Shown piece after piece: positions 7,816 to 13,214 of a stretch of 64,000 nucleotides of DNA; the first letter of the stretch is position 1, and the number at the start of each line of letters is the position of its first letter. Under the pieces are notes generated by a model, which did no database searches, was not told the origin of the DNA, and was given only the letters and a program-made list of their open reading frames with translations. Source of the stretch: Ilyobacter polytropus DSM 2926 (GTDB lineage Bacteria; Fusobacteriota; Fusobacteriia; Fusobacteriales; Fusobacteriaceae). The position numbers and the translations under genes are program-made. The stretch is taken from contig NC_014633.1 of NCBI RefSeq assembly GCF_000165505.1, positions 310,001-374,000 of the forward strand. Direction: 5' to 3'.

Positions 7816-8300
7816 ATTGTCAGATAAATTCTGTTTAATCTGACTTTATGAATATAAATTTTTTAAGTGCAAAAAAACTAGTGATAGTGTATAATAAGAG
7901 TGTACATACTTCTGAAAGTATTAAAAAATATAATAGAAATATTTATATTTACTTTAGTGAATAAATATTTATTAGACCCTATGGGTTTTGAAAGTGTTTT
8001 GATAATTCTTAACAGAAGTAAATGGCAAGTTTGATACAGACTCTGAATATTTGAAATGAATAAAAGATTTTTGAGATTAAAGGAAAAGGGTTTAAGATTT
8101 AAAGGGTCGGGGGGCTTTTTATATAGTATTTTATTTCAAAGTTCAGGGTTTTGTTGATATATATTTTGGGTAGATACCTGGGATTTGAATTTCAGGTATC
8201 GAAAATATTTTATTAGTATGATACTTATAAAAAAAGTTTGACAAAAGAAATTTTCTATAGTAATCTTTTGTAAAGAGTTGTGTTAGAGTTTATTATTAAA
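7816..8300 (+). other. Long untranslated leader with a hairpin
   Basis: About 485 bases with no convincing gene lie between promoter module 1 and the leader peptide. A perfect 8-base stem, GATACCTG (8173-8180) with CAGGTATC (8193-8200), has a 12-base loop and no T run after it. An ATG frame at 7848-7964 (38 codons) lacks a ribosome binding site and was not called. No T-box signature was found. Confidence 0.4.
8238..8266 (+). promoter_or_regulatory. Possible second promoter just before the leader peptide
   Basis: A perfect TTGACA (8238-8243) is followed after 17 bases by TAATCT (8261-8266), a poor -10. It would give a short leader of about 45 bases before the leader-peptide start, as expected for an attenuator. 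The weak -10 keeps this tentative. Confidence 0.35.
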
Positions 8301-8315
8301 AAAGGGGATGCAGAG

Positions 8316-8405
8316 ATGATGGCTAAATTTACTTGGTGGTGGCAAAACAAAATTGACCAATACAATAAAAGTCAAGTGAACCAGGTTTTGTCAAAGTCTG
8401 CATAA
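8316..8405 (+). CDS. Trp-rich leader peptide of a transcription attenuator
   Basis: A 29-codon frame starts ATG ATG, eight bases after AAAGGGG, and encodes MMAKFTWWWQNKIDQY and a short tail. Three consecutive TGG codons (8334-8342) are the hallmark of a ribosome-stalling Trp sensor. The stop codon at 8403 is 28 bases before the first of two terminator hairpins, and the next gene encodes a TrpX-like binding protein. Ribosome stalling at the Trp codons under Trp starvation should favour an antiterminator. CAGGT near the end of the frame (8382-8386) can pair with the 5' arm of the first hairpin, which allows the classic alternating pairings. It is too short for usual gene callers. Confidence 0.82.
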   Translation: MMAKFTWWWQNKIDQYNKSQVNQVLSKSA

Positions 8406-8433
8406 AAAAATTATCTTAGAAATTGATTTTTAC

Positions 8434-8462
8434 GACCTGTTCTCAAAGGACAGGTCTTTTTA
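8434..8462 (+). terminator. Attenuator hairpin 1
   Basis: GACCTGT (8434-8440) pairs with ACAGGTC (8450-8456) and is followed by TTTTTATT. Its 3' arm can also pair with GACCTGT at 8484-8490 in the next hairpin, giving a possible antiterminator form. Confidence 0.75.
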
Positions 8463-8479
8463 TTAGAAATTTTAATCTT

Positions 8480-8507
8480 AAAGGACCTGTGCACAGGTCC
8501 TTTTTTT
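8480..8507 (+). terminator. Attenuator hairpin 2
   Basis: The palindrome GGACCTGTGCACAGGTCC (8483-8500) is flanked by AA and a run of seven T. It is a strong terminator 92 bases before the first binding-protein gene, and it repeats the arm sequences of hairpin 1. Confidence 0.85.
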
Positions 8508-8598
8508 ATACCTTTATCAAAAAGGAGATAAGAACTCATACAACTTAATAGAAGTAAATCCAAAGAAAGTATTTAATAAAACTCGAGGGGGAAAAATC

Positions 8599-9531
8599 AT
8601 GAAAAAATTATTAATTATGTGTTTTGTAATACTAGCAGCAATAGGATGTGGAAAGAAAGAGGAGCTAAAACCTATAAAAGTAGGGATTACACAGATAGTA
8701 GAACATCCTTCACTAGATGAAGTCAGAAAAGGTGTAGAGGATGCTATTTCAAAAAGTGAATTTAAGGACAGAGTAGAACTCAACTATCAAAACGCACAGG
8801 GGGATTTTAATACTGCTCAGATGATAGCCACTTCATTTAAAGAGAGTGAAGATATGGTCGTTGCAATAACAACTCCTAGTGCCCAGGCTGCACAAAATCA
8901 AATTTCAGACAAGCCAGTTTTCTTTGCTGCAGTAACAAACCCCGATGTGGCAGGACTCACTGCTTCAAATGTAACCGGAGTAAGTGATCAGTCACCTGTT
9001 GAAAAACAGATAGAACTTATAATGGATCTTTTACCTGAGGCAGAAAAAGTGGGAATCGTATATAACACAAGTGAGCAGAATTCAGTTTATCTTACAGAAC
9101 TTTTTACTGATAAAGCTAAAGAAGCAGGACTAAAAGTAGTAGTAAGAGGAATAACTAATGTAAATGAAGTTGCTTCTGCCTTAGATACTATAATGCCAGA
9201 GATAGATGTACTTTATACATCGATAGACAACACAATAGCATCTGCCTATCCACTGGTTATACAAAAGGCCGATCAAGGAAAGGTGCCTGTAATCGGAGCA
9301 ACTAAGCCATATGTGTACCAGGGAGCCGTTGCTACAGAGGGTATAGAGGACTATCAGGTCGGTTACCAGACGGGAGAGATGCTTGTGAGATATCTTCAAG
9401 GGGAAAAAATAGAGGATATGCCGTATGAAACAGTAAAGAACTCTTCATTGTATATAAATAGAAAAAAATCCCAAGAGTATAATATAAAAATCTCAGAAAC
9501 TTTAAAAGAAAGAGCTGAAATGGTGGACTAA
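8599..9531 (+). CDS. TrpX-like ABC transporter substrate-binding lipoprotein, copy 1
   Basis: A lipoprotein of the ABC_sub_bind family (COG2984). The signal peptide ends in a lipobox, LAAIGC, with the acylated Cys at residue 17. Family marks include GITQIVEHPSLD, GDFNTAQMIATSF, TPSAQAAQN, VGIVYNTSEQNS and YTSIDNTIASAYPLV. It should bind an aromatic amino acid, probably tryptophan, outside the membrane. The specificity is inferred from the Trp-codon leader and attenuator just upstream, not from binding residues. It is closely similar to the next gene and ends at its own terminator, so it forms a separate transcription unit. GAGGGGG precedes the ATG. Confidence 0.88.
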   Translation: MKKLLIMCFVILAAIGCGKKEELKPIKVGITQIVEHPSLDEVRKGVEDAISKSEFKDRVELNYQNAQGDFNTAQMIATSFKESEDMVVAITTPSAQAAQNQISDKPVFFAAVTNPDVAGLTASNVTGVSDQSPVEKQIELIMDLLPEAEKVGIVYNTSEQNSVYLTELFTDKAKEAGLKVVVRGITNVNEVASALDTIMPEIDVLYTSIDNTIASAYPLVIQKADQGKVPVIGATKPYVYQGAVATEGIEDYQVGYQTGEMLVRYLQGEKIEDMPYETVKNSSLYINRKKSQEYNIKISETLKERAEMVD

Positions 9532-9545
9532 TACGAACAAAATTT

Positions 9546-9575
9546 ATAGGAGTATACCTGTATACTCCTATTTTT
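9546..9575 (+). terminator. Terminator after binding-protein copy 1
   Basis: AGGAGTATAC (9548-9557) and GTATACTCCT (9560-9569) form a long stem with a tight loop, followed by ATTTTT. Confidence 0.85.
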
Positions 9576-9599
9576 AATGCGATCCCATCTTAAAAAACC

Positions 9600-9658
9600 G
9601 AACAAAATGCTTTTTTTATTGTTGGATAGAAGCCTTTTAACTAAAATGATATCATTTT
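9600..9658 (+). promoter_or_regulatory. Promoter-operator module 2 of the tryptophan transport locus
   Basis: TTGTTG (9619-9624), a 17-base spacer and TAAAAT (9642-9647) overlap a perfect 16-base palindrome, AAAATGATATCATTTT (9643-9658). The block matches module 1 at 7757-7815 in order, spacing and much of its sequence. Here it is only 36 bases before the start codon, with no leader peptide. Confidence 0.78.
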
Positions 9659-9693
9659 ATACAGAGATTAAATTTTAGAGGGGTGAGGAGTTT

Positions 9694-10635
9694 ATGAAAA
9701 AAGGTTTATTTTTAGCTATCCTAACTTTAGTTATTTTAATTACAGGGTGCGGAAAAAAAGAAGAGAAGAAAACTAAGATAGGAATTACTCAGATAATAGA
9801 ACATCCGGCTTTAGATGCTTCTAAAGAAGGATTTTTACAGGCATTAGAAGATGCTGGATATGATGAAACAAAGGTAGAGATAGAATTCCAAAGTGCTCAG
9901 GGTGATTTTGGAACAGCTCAGACAATAGCTAACTCCTATGTACAGGATAAAAAAGACCTAATACTAGCCATAGCAACACCTAGTGCACAGGCTGCTTATA
10001 ACACGACTAAGGAGATACCTATTTTAATAACTGCAGTTACAGATCCAGAAACAGCTGGACTTACTGGAGACAATATAAGTGGAACAAGTGATATGTCACC
10101 AGTTAAGCAGCAGATGGAGCTTGTAAAAAAACTTCTTCCTGATGCTAAAAAAGTCGGAATAGTATATAATACAAGTGAACAGAATTCAGAATTTCTTGTA
10201 AAGAAAGCAATTGAGGAATGTGATAAGTTATCTTTAGAAGTAATTACTTCAGGTGTAACAAATGTTAATGAAGTATCTTCTGCCCTAGATGTTATTTTAG
10301 GAAAAGTGGATGTACTTTATGTTCCTACTGACAATCTTATGACAGCCGCTATACCACTTGTGCTCCAAAAGACAAATGAAGCAAAGGTTCCAGTAATAGG
10401 TTCTATAAAAGACATGGTAGAGCAGGGAGCAATAGCTACTGAGACTATAGACTATTATAAATTAGGTTATCAGACAGGAGAGATGGCAGTAGAGATATTA
10501 GAAGGTGCAAGCATTAAAGATATGCCTGTGGAGACATTAAAAGATACTCAACTTATTATAAACAAGAGAGCGGCTGAAGAGATGGGAATCTCACTTGATA
10601 ATATCGATGGTTTGGATAAAGCTGAAATATTTTAA
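9694..10635 (+). CDS. TrpX-like ABC transporter substrate-binding lipoprotein, copy 2
   Basis: A paralogue of the preceding lipoprotein with the same layout: signal peptide with lipobox LITGC, then GITQIIEHPALD, GDFGTAQTIANSY, TPSAQAAYN, VGIVYNTSEQNS and a C-terminal INKRAAEEMGI. It is read from its own promoter-operator and is followed at once by the permease and ATPase, so it is the binding protein of the complete transporter operon. A GGGGTGAGGAG lies before the ATG. Differences from copy 1, such as YVPTDNLMTAAIP in place of YTSIDNTIASAYP, could mark a different affinity or ligand. Confidence 0.9.
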   Translation: MKKGLFLAILTLVILITGCGKKEEKKTKIGITQIIEHPALDASKEGFLQALEDAGYDETKVEIEFQSAQGDFGTAQTIANSYVQDKKDLILAIATPSAQAAYNTTKEIPILITAVTDPETAGLTGDNISGTSDMSPVKQQMELVKKLLPDAKKVGIVYNTSEQNSEFLVKKAIEECDKLSLEVITSGVTNVNEVSSALDVILGKVDVLYVPTDNLMTAAIPLVLQKTNEAKVPVIGSIKDMVEQGAIATETIDYYKLGYQTGEMAVEILEGASIKDMPVETLKDTQLIINKRAAEEMGISLDNIDGLDKAEIF

Positions 10636-10675: not shown

Positions 10676-11530
10676 GTGATATTACTAGGAACACTGGAGC
10701 AGGGATTAATATTTTCAATAATGGTTTTGGGGGTCTATATCTCTTATAAGATATTAGACTTTCCTGACCTTTCAGTAGATGGAAGCTTTCCATTGGGAGC
10801 TGCAGTTGCTGCAGTGTGTGTCAGCAGAGGGATGAGTCCGGTTTTGGCACTTCTTCTAGCTGTGGTAGCAGGAGGAATGGCAGGTTTTGTAACAGGTTAT
10901 ATACATGTAAAATGGAATATAACAAACCTTTTGGCAGGGATAATAGTTATGACCGGTCTTTATAGTGTTAATCTCAGAGTCATGGGGAAATCCAATATAC
11001 CTTTGTTTGGAGTGGATCACTTATTTAACACTGGATTACCGTCTATAGTTGTTATTCTAGTGCTATTAACAGTTGTAAAAGGATCTCTTGACTATCTGTT
11101 AAAGACAAAGTTTGGTTTTGCCCTTAAGGCCTTAGGAGACAATGAAACTCTTGTAGTATCGCTAGGGATAAATGAAAAGCACCTAAAGATATATGGTCTG
11201 GCCATATCCAATGCTCTGGTTGCTTTATCTGGTGGAATTCTTGCACAGTATCAAGGATTTGCAGATGTAGGAATGGGAACAGGAACAATAGTAACAGGTC
11301 TTGCAGCTATAATAATAGGTGAAACTGTATTCAAAACAGGTAAGTTTATGAAAGCAACAACAGTAGCTTTACTAGGAACCCTTATATTTAAATATGTAGT
11401 AGCGGCTGCACTAAAAATGGGTATGAGAGCCAGTGACCTAAAGCTTGTAACTGCTGTTATAGTGGTAGGAATAATGGCCCTTAAGGAGAAGAAAAAAGGT
11501 CTGAAAAGAGGTGTTGCATCAAATGGTTAA
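10676..11530 (+). CDS. TrpY-like ABC transporter permease
   Basis: A hydrophobic 284-residue protein of COG4120 with about eight membrane segments. It includes the family marks DFPDLSVDGSFPLGAAV near the N-terminus and GFALKALGDNE, the cytoplasmic loop that contacts the ATPase. The start is a GTG eight bases after GGAGGAAG. It lies 40 bases after binding-protein copy 2 and overlaps the ATPase gene by 8 bases, so the three are translated from one message. It should form a homodimeric channel for tryptophan or a related solute. Confidence 0.9.
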   Translation: MILLGTLEQGLIFSIMVLGVYISYKILDFPDLSVDGSFPLGAAVAAVCVSRGMSPVLALLLAVVAGGMAGFVTGYIHVKWNITNLLAGIIVMTGLYSVNLRVMGKSNIPLFGVDHLFNTGLPSIVVILVLLTVVKGSLDYLLKTKFGFALKALGDNETLVVSLGINEKHLKIYGLAISNALVALSGGILAQYQGFADVGMGTGTIVTGLAAIIIGETVFKTGKFMKATTVALLGTLIFKYVVAAALKMGMRASDLKLVTAVIVVGIMALKEKKKGLKRGVASNG

Positions 11531-12314
11531 ATTGGAAAATATAAAGAAAACCTTTATTTCAGAACTTGGAACTAAGAAAGAGGTGTTTAAAAATCTCAAC
11601 TTTCATGTGAAAGAGGGAGATTTTATAACTATAATAGGAAGTAATGGAGCGGGTAAATCTACCCTTTTAAATGTAATCTTAGGAAATATAATCTCTGATT
11701 CAGGAAGGGTACTTGTAGGAAGCAGAGATGTGACATATATGGAAAAACATAAGAGAAACAGTTTTATGTCTAAAGTGTATCAAAATCCATCTTTAGGAAC
11801 TGCACCTTCGATGACAGTTTATGAAAATCTTTCTATGGCAGACAATAAAGGTAAAAAATTTGGACTTTCTATTGGACTTAACAAAAATAGGAGAGGTTAT
11901 TATATAGAGGCACTTTCTCAGTTGGGATTAGGTATAGAAAACCAGATGGATACCGAAGTGGGACTTTTATCAGGAGGACAGCGACAGTGCCTTGCACTAA
12001 TAATGGCAACTCTTAATAAACCAGAAGTTCTGATGCTCGACGAGCATACGGCGGCTTTAGATCCTAAGACATCTAAGATCATAATGAATAAAACAAAAGA
12101 GGTAGTAGAAGGAAATAACATATCTACTCTTATGATAACTCATAACCTCCAAGATGCAATAGATTATGGAAACAGAATGATCATGCTTCATCAAGGTGAA
12201 ATAATAATAGATATTAGTGGAAAAGATAAGCAGGAATTGACCGTAGAATCTCTTCTTGAAACATTTCATAAAAAAGAAGCCGGATTTAGAGGGGAAGAAC
12301 TCTTTTCAGTATAG
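11523..12314 (+). CDS. TrpZ-like ABC transporter ATP-binding protein
   Basis: The ATPase partner of the permease (COG1101). Walker A is GSNGAGKST, the signature is LSGGQRQCL, and Walker B reads LMLDEHTAALDP, with His after the catalytic Glu as is usual in this family. The frame can be extended to a GTG at 11511, but the ATG at 11523 gives MVKLENIKKTF, is nine bases after AGAGGTG and overlaps the permease stop by 8 bases. It is about 264 residues and ends the operon. Confidence 0.9.
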   Translation: MVKLENIKKTFISELGTKKEVFKNLNFHVKEGDFITIIGSNGAGKSTLLNVILGNIISDSGRVLVGSRDVTYMEKHKRNSFMSKVYQNPSLGTAPSMTVYENLSMADNKGKKFGLSIGLNKNRRGYYIEALSQLGLGIENQMDTEVGLLSGGQRQCLALIMATLNKPEVLMLDEHTAALDPKTSKIIMNKTKEVVEGNNISTLMITHNLQDAIDYGNRMIMLHQGEIIIDISGKDKQELTVESLLETFHKKEAGFRGEELFSV

Positions 12315-12368: not shown

Positions 12369-13214
12369 ATGAAGAAGATACGGGTGACAGTCCCGGAAGA
12401 TATCTGGCGTATGATGAGAAATGACGTAGAAGAGTTTGGTATAAACAACAATAAACTCTGCAATTATATACTGGATAAACTAAAATATAAAAAAGATATT
12501 AATGTGGAAAAGCTCCTGGAAACTCAAGGAAGACCTCTAAAGAAGATAATACAGTTTGACCTCAATGTGGCAAATAGAGAGATTTATTATGATGTATTGA
12601 AGGAAAATCATGTAGATATAGAGGCTGAGTTTTTCAGGGAGCTTTTTGAAGTGTATACATCTAAATTTAAATATCAAAGAGAGCTTTTTATATACGAAGA
12701 GAGACTAAAAAGTATATTAGAAGCCATAAAACTAAAAAGAAAACTTAAATTGAAATATATAAACAAAATCTACACTGTGGAACCTTTTTTTGTAAAAAGA
12801 GAGGAACAGGGAGATGAAAACTTTTTATTCTGTTTCTGTGAAGAAGCTAAAGGCTATAGAAACTATAAGCTAAAAGAATTAGAGATAATATCTATATTAG
12901 ATGACAAGATAAAAGGTAAGGATAAAAAGTACATAGAAAGTGTAAGAAAAAACTTTGATCCATTTTTGGGTAACGGGAACTTTGTGAAGGTAAGGCTTAC
13001 AGGAGAAGGGGTAAGTCTTATGAAGAGTTTGACAAACTACAGGCCTAAATTTTTAAAAAGATCAGGAGATGTCTACACCTTTGAGGCTTCAAATGAAAAT
13101 GCCAAGCTTTATTTTAGACAGTTTCTAAAAGAAGCAGTTATTCTTGAACCCAAAGAACTAAGAGAAGAGATGAAAAATGAATTTTTAGAAGCCTTTGAGA
13201 GTTACAACTCATAA
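12369..13214 (+). CDS. WYL-domain transcriptional regulator with RHH-like N-terminus
   Basis: A 281-residue protein. Residues 1-35 (MKKIRVTVPEDIWRMM and a following helix) look like a ribbon-helix-helix DNA-binding module. A helical linker follows. From about residue 118 there is a WYL-type domain: AIKLKRKLKLKYI, EPFFVKRE, YRNYKLKELEII, with a C-terminal KVRLTGEG extension. WYL domains sense small ligands or nucleic acids and often control nearby genes. It starts 54 bases after the transporter ATPase gene, behind GGGAGGG, which makes it a candidate for the factor that binds the TGATATCA palindromes. That link is inference only. Confidence 0.75.
   Translation: MKKIRVTVPEDIWRMMRNDVEEFGINNNKLCNYILDKLKYKKDINVEKLLETQGRPLKKIIQFDLNVANREIYYDVLKENHVDIEAEFFRELFEVYTSKFKYQRELFIYEERLKSILEAIKLKRKLKLKYINKIYTVEPFFVKREEQGDENFLFCFCEEAKGYRNYKLKELEIISILDDKIKGKDKKYIESVRKNFDPFLGNGNFVKVRLTGEGVSLMKSLTNYRPKFLKRSGDVYTFEASNENAKLYFRQFLKEAVILEPKELREEMKNEFLEAFESYNS

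Follow-up and report, generated by a model that had tools for sequence, protein, structure and literature searches.

A predicted trp-type attenuator with tandem, cross-pairing terminators before the trpX1 transporter gene of Ilyobacter polytropus

The region before trpX1 of Ilyobacter polytropus DSM 2926 is, with high confidence, a ribosome-mediated transcription attenuator of the trp type that answers charged tRNA-Trp; the response itself is inferred, there being no expression data. We found a leader that is conserved before three operon types, two terminators, and statistical support for both the 1:2 and the 2:3 pairing of the leader transcript. The region meets the criteria for an attenuator, i.e., an ORF with a run of Trp codons, a terminator before the gene, an exclusive 2:3 antiterminator, a 1:2 pair, and a gene of tryptophan metabolism downstream. 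The conserved Trp run and the alternative pairings support the ribosome-mediated attenuation that had been put forward in a sequence-only reading of this DNA, with the read-through response remaining an inference.

In the proposed mechanism a ribosome would translate the leader during its transcription by RNA polymerase. With charged tRNA-Trp in ample supply the ribosome would reach the stop codon and cover region 2, terminator T1 (and T2) would form, and transcription would end before trpX1. With charged tRNA-Trp scarce the ribosome would stall on the three Trp codons and cover region 1, and region 2 would then pair with the 5' arm of T1 and block it; the 3' arm of T1, now free, and its U-tract would pair with the 5' arm of T2, disarming this terminator as well, and trpX1 would be transcribed. 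Without translation, region 1 would pair with region 2 and the terminators would form. Translation of the leader, stalling, the kinetic order, the tryptophan response and the rise of read-through upon scarcity are each inferred.

Results

Leader ORF and terminators at the trpX1 locus

The window (the whole stretch of 64,000 nucleotides that was analysed) is part of a 961,624-base replicon within a 3.13 Mb genome of three contigs, and all features given here are on its forward strand. The leader ORF at 8316-8405 was read from the sequence as 29 codons (peptide MMAKFTWWWQNKIDQYNKSQVNQVLSKSA, stop TAA, conserved in relatives), and is preceded by a Shine-Dalgarno-like AGGGG at 8303-8307, inferred from its spacing. 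The presumed sensor, three consecutive Trp codons (TGG TGG TGG, 8334-8342), is conserved in the leaders of trpX, trpE and trpS. Region 1 (GGCAAAAC, 8341-8348) overlaps the last Trp codon and is the partner of GUUUUGUC in region 2 according to duplex shuffle tests; region 2 (CAGGUUUUGUC, 8382-8392), seen in two reading frames across relatives, can pair by its CAGGU with the first terminator arm and by GUUUUGUC with region 1. Folding and a terminator scan placed T1 at 8434-8456 (arms GACCTGTTCTCAAAGGACAGGTC and TTTTTATT; the 5' arm is region 3 and the 3' arm region 4) and T2, the stabler hairpin at this locus, at 8480-8503 (arms AAAGGACCTGTGCACAGGTCCTTT and TTTTATAC), the 5' arm of T2 being complementary to the 3' arm of T1 and its U-tract in a duplex test. 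The scan that recovered both hairpins returned 6 sites in 4.9 kb vs 1.7 by chance. The sequence-only reading had described the 29-codon frame with its three Trp codons, a gap of 28 bases between the leader stop and the first hairpin (8405 to 8434), the double use of GACCTGT/ACAGGTC in the hairpins, and a CAGGT (8382-8386) able to pair with ACCTG of the first arm; it was accurate on each of these and in all of its coordinates, and the folding of 8300-8520 that it had suggested gave a structure 4.4 sd below (stabler than) dinucleotide shuffles.

Conservation before three operon types

Profiles of the leader peptides detected RFTWWWQN-type leaders 5' of trpX in 19 genomes (7 genera) and RFTWWW(Q/K/R)N leaders 5' of trpE in nine genomes (four genera), and a profile search detected the same leader type 5' of trpS, the gene for tryptophanyl-tRNA synthetase, in a single genus (four genomes); the relatives that bear these leaders belong to what we take to be the Fusobacteriaceae. 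Every gene set found with a WWW-type leader is one of tryptophan metabolism. The run itself is WWW in most leaders, with WW, WWC or WWG in the remainder, over the three operon types; the absence of such conservation would have refuted the earlier reading, and this did not occur. An IUPAC pattern drawn around the Trp run gave 13 matches, which lay in 11 of 196 genomes and only in Fusobacteriaceae, and the reversed pattern, used as control on the 196 genomes, gave 0 matches. Two copies are in the I. polytropus genome, 5' of trpX and 5' of trpE; the latter (MMRFTWWWKNSISDQSNKLSGFAALS, from a peptide search) precedes a complete trpEGDCFBA operon and is followed by two terminators. Hairpin terminators follow all trpX and trpE leaders, normally two in tandem, with T2 between T1 and the gene in all of them, and a single one follows the trpS leaders; the trpX leaders of genus g13 have a weak, AU-rich hairpin in first place. 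The RFT residues before the Trp run are well conserved. The region-2 motif CAGGTTTTG encodes Q-V-L in most trpX leaders and S-G-F in g1 trpE and g5 trpX, and since it is kept in two reading frames, selection acts here on the RNA.

Alternative pairings

Pairing was assessed against dinucleotide shuffles, with p values combined by Fisher's method over 12 lineage/operon representatives (one per genus and operon). The 1:2 duplex exceeded shuffles with a combined p of 2e-8 (0.056 at the trpX locus alone), and the 2:3 antiterminator duplex with a combined p of 2e-6 (0.05 at the trpX locus alone); these combined values overstate independence because the lineages are related. The shuffle test did not support pair 1:2 in genus g13 trpE or in trpS, nor pair 2:3 in g13 trpX. 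The partners within regions 1 and 2 covary, being CAAAAC/GUUUUG in most trpX leaders, CAAAAAC/GUUUUUG in genus g13 trpX and GAAGAAGAG/CUCUUCUU in g5 trpE. The shuffle tests across lineages thus bear out the competition between terminator and antiterminator suggested from the sequence.

Switching was modelled with transcripts ending in the T1 loop, masking of the Trp codons representing the stalled ribosome. With the Trp codons masked, T1a:region 2 had P of 0.99 at the trpX locus and about 0.8-1.0 in most leaders, and with the leader wholly free, 1:2 was favoured in many leaders. At the trpX locus the 1:2 pair of the wholly free leader had P of only 0.36 and the 2:3 pair still 0.97, which leaves the no-translation state poorly resolved there. 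The gap between terminated and antiterminated forms at this locus was only 2.5 kcal/mol in the stalled state (shuffled leaders 3.9, p 0.01) and 4.5 kcal/mol with the ribosome at the stop. A switch working at equilibrium only was rejected, as the terminators stayed stabler at equilibrium in every leader; antitermination must then be kinetic, and the argument rests on co-transcriptional order.

Relay from T1 to T2

The unusual part of this uncommon layout is the pair of tandem terminators with cross-pairing arms. The T1b:T2a duplex reached -15.4 kcal/mol at the trpX locus (p 0.008) and -11.8 kcal/mol at trpE of the same genus (p 0.09); the strong pairing of the T1 3' arm and U-tract with the T2 5' arm in the Ilyobacter genus means that opening T1 can open T2. 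Combined over lineages, p was 0.001 for T1b:T2a and 2e-5 for region 2:T2a. The T1b and T2a arms pair only weakly in genera g5, g12, g13 trpX and g14, for which reason the relay as a universal rule was rejected. It could be that attenuation acts on T1 only, the two terminators being independent and T2 a leaky back-up without relay; the weak T1b:T2a in several genera and the greater stability of T2 at the trpX locus are in keeping with this variant, which we nevertheless regard as doubtful. In every trpX and trpE leader T2 separates T1 from the gene, and if T2 were not disarmed the control exerted at T1 would have little effect; moreover, T1b:T2a is strong in the genus itself in both operons. 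Region 2 of genus g14 also holds two CAGG copies (QVDQV) in nested order; the first can pair with T2a and the second with T1a, which gives this genus a second region 2 copy able to pair with T2a. The T1b:T2a complementarity could come in part from two terminators of similar sequence. We infer that the relay is well supported in the Ilyobacter genus and lineage-dependent elsewhere, this being the least certain part of the reading.

Arrest peptide or riboswitch

A short Trp-containing leader before a Trp-related gene, with a well conserved RFT before the Trp run, could also be a TnaC-like arrest peptide, where free tryptophan stalls the ribosome via the nascent chain and control has the opposite direction (induction by tryptophan). 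This was rejected as highly improbable, given that the C-terminal part shows no conservation at the protein level, relatives reading its bases in different frames, that three Trp codons in a row are the signature of starvation sensing, that two intrinsic terminators follow the leader directly, and that the same leader precedes trpE and trpS, for which induction by lack and not by excess of tryptophan is expected.

The least probable alternative is that the short ORF arose by chance and the leader acts as a riboswitch or binds a protein, in the manner of a T-box, a TRAP-like leader or the trpB motif. It has as precedents the T-box of streptococcal trpX (PMC9382623) and the RF04312 motif of other trpX genes, and is opposed by region 2 being conserved along with the Trp run and by the Rfam scan of the window, in which no family reached its cut-off. 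Neither RF04312 nor the T-box (RF00230) gave a match within 8150-8620 even at E 10, and T-box control of trpX1 and RF04312 membership of its leader were both rejected; as positive control, the T-box model matched 8 of the 14 streptococcal trpX loci scanned. The T-box matches in the own genome are weak and lie elsewhere, two close together (G000:C2:76647-76894 and 78580-78809) away from trp genes.

TrpX proteins and the reach of the control

trpX1 (8599-9531) encodes, by family match and alignment, a putative substrate-binding lipoprotein of the tryptophan type (PF04392, 258 bits; NF041285, 273 bits and so short of its cut-off of 390), with Asp at the position of Trp specificity. Published structures (PMC6816091) have Gln-284 at this position in pneumococcal SP1069, which binds Trp, and Tyr in CD0873 and VC_1101, which bind Tyr and Phe, respectively. 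In our alignment of fetched proteins it is Asp, Glu or Gln in all 19 TrpX proteins behind a WWW-type leader, and in 12 of 61 leaderless paralogues, the others having Tyr or Phe; two of these 12 carry other Trp-containing leaders (L121 and L109). The leader-bearing TrpX proteins are largely one orthologous group, so that the match of pocket residue and leader is an agreement and not many independent events. Tryptophan as ligand of TrpX1, which the earlier reading had drawn from the leader codons, gains independent support from the pocket residue, albeit without binding data.

The locus L121 (G090:C47:1307-1354) stands before trpX of a sister family, presumably the Leptotrichiaceae. Its Trp leader, MKRQNWLWWGNNFYTI, is of another kind and precedes two terminator-like hairpins; a wider search with this leader returned only its own genome.

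Downstream of trpX1, the terminator scan placed a terminator-like hairpin at 9546-9571, the probable end of the attenuator-controlled transcript; a hairpin like it is present in one of two congeners and degenerate in the other. Then follow the paralogous lipoprotein gene trpX2 (9694-10635; family match and alignment), without a leader directly upstream, and, by family match, genes for a trpY-like permease (BPD_transp_2, 10676-11530) and a trpZ-like ATPase (ABC_tran, 11511-12314). TrpX2, encoded beside trpY and trpZ, carries a Tyr at the specificity position, and its ligand is probably Tyr or Phe. The block GAACAAA...TTGTT...ATGATATCAT before trpX2 recurs in genera g1, g14 and g5, and the interval 9546-9693, with hairpin and conserved block, is likely a separate promoter/operator of trpX2-Y-Z. 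A WYL-domain-like protein, encoded at 12369-13214 after trpZ, perhaps acts on this operator-like block; a related gene follows trpX2 in G008. With the hairpin and the block between them, the attenuator probably controls TrpX1 alone and trpX2-Y-Z is controlled separately. The earlier claim that the attenuator controls the transporter therefore stands for the first lipoprotein gene, which it directly precedes, and not for the second lipoprotein, permease and ATPase, which are set apart.

Codon-run leaders beside RF04312

PMC11109978 presents RF04312 (the trpB motif) as a strong riboswitch candidate for which the authors could not exclude an attenuator. We examined RF04312-type loci L132-L161, L247-L264, L241-L244, L245 and L246; all matches in the family are below the Rfam cut-off (34-56 vs 59 bits). 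Almost throughout, the RF04312 matches in Fusobacteriaceae follow a short ORF that has a plausible ribosome-binding site and ends 10-36 bases upstream of the motif, and the leader codons match the gene: HHHHHR before amino-acid-binding lipoproteins (whose ligand is not settled by family matches) and hisZ; YYYYY before tyrS and an AGCS carrier; WYFYYYF before DAHP synthase; PIPPR before putP; TTTTDT before thrS; and WQSH(W) before trpX. The own-genome matches are at tyrS (G000:C1:1891235-1891340, L245) and DAHP synthase (G000:C2:513758-513874, L246). A weak RF04312 match precedes a Q-type TrpX of genus g9, and LWQSWRR leaders with RF04312 stand before trpX in two streptococci. For most of the His, Trp and Pro leaders, the sequence that follows the stop codon is complementary to the left arm of the first RF04312 hairpin (p 0.003-0.05), by which a stalled ribosome could free an antiterminator. 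At least six further RF04312 matches, without codon-run leader, look like chance, and at E 1e-6 no match was obtained in 389 genomes, an uninformative result since the positive controls failed at this threshold as well. These below-cut-off matches suggest that RF04312 is a leader-peptide attenuator and not a riboswitch.

In S. thoraltensis (L244) the leader MLKQTSAIMAQANSYYYFGFFR precedes another TrpX-like lipoprotein, which suggests a Tyr/Phe-type paralogue under Tyr/Phe codons.

Discussion

The trpX1 element resembles the E. coli trp attenuator (trpL; 1:2, 2:3, 3:4) in its tandem Trp codons, in a region 2 with alternating partners and in its place before trp genes; it differs in coming from the Fusobacteriaceae, in having no Rfam leader match at cut-off, in the two tandem cross-pairing terminators, and in that the leader also precedes a transporter lipoprotein gene and trpS besides trpE. 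The actinobacterial leaders of trp operons and of S. avermitilis trpS2 (PMC1262725) share 2-3 TGG codons with a terminator and antiterminator, but are from another phylum, and the words "transporter" and "tandem" are absent from that paper. The T-box of streptococcal trpXYZ (PMC9382623) serves the same transporter family, senses tRNA-Trp charging and has an intrinsic terminator; it is a tRNA-binding riboswitch without leader translation and was undetected in the window. RF04312 (PMC11109978) occurs in Firmicutes and Fusobacteria before amino-acid ABC transporters, and here follows a codon-rich short ORF; it differs by a codon run at the ORF end, an extra hairpin P1 and a single terminator, and its model does not match the trpX1 leader.

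A limited literature search, subscription papers being outside it, found no description of attenuation or a leader peptide for a Trp leader in Fusobacteria, and the accessible parts of PMC8632094, PMC4833913 and PMC11109978 describe none. On sequence evidence, then, the trpX1 element appears to be a genuine trp-type attenuator on a transporter gene in Fusobacteria, where we found none described.

It is likely, if less firmly held than the attenuator at trpX1, that codon-run attenuators are one of the main means by which Fusobacteriaceae exert amino-acid control. The Trp leader with tandem terminators would be one architecture, and RF04312 (> 900 members) another, the non-riboswitch structural half of a modular attenuator whose leader codons (His, Tyr, Pro, Thr, Trp or mixed aromatic) match the downstream gene.

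The finding would extend leader-peptide attenuation to a phylum without a described case in the literature accessible to our limited search, with paralogous leaders serving a transporter as well as an aminoacyl-tRNA synthetase. It bears on ligand assignment in PF04392 transporters, where Trp-, Tyr- and Phe-binders are hard to distinguish, in that leader codons agree with the pocket residue; and for the orphan candidate RF04312 the codon-run leader approach offers a direct, testable answer.
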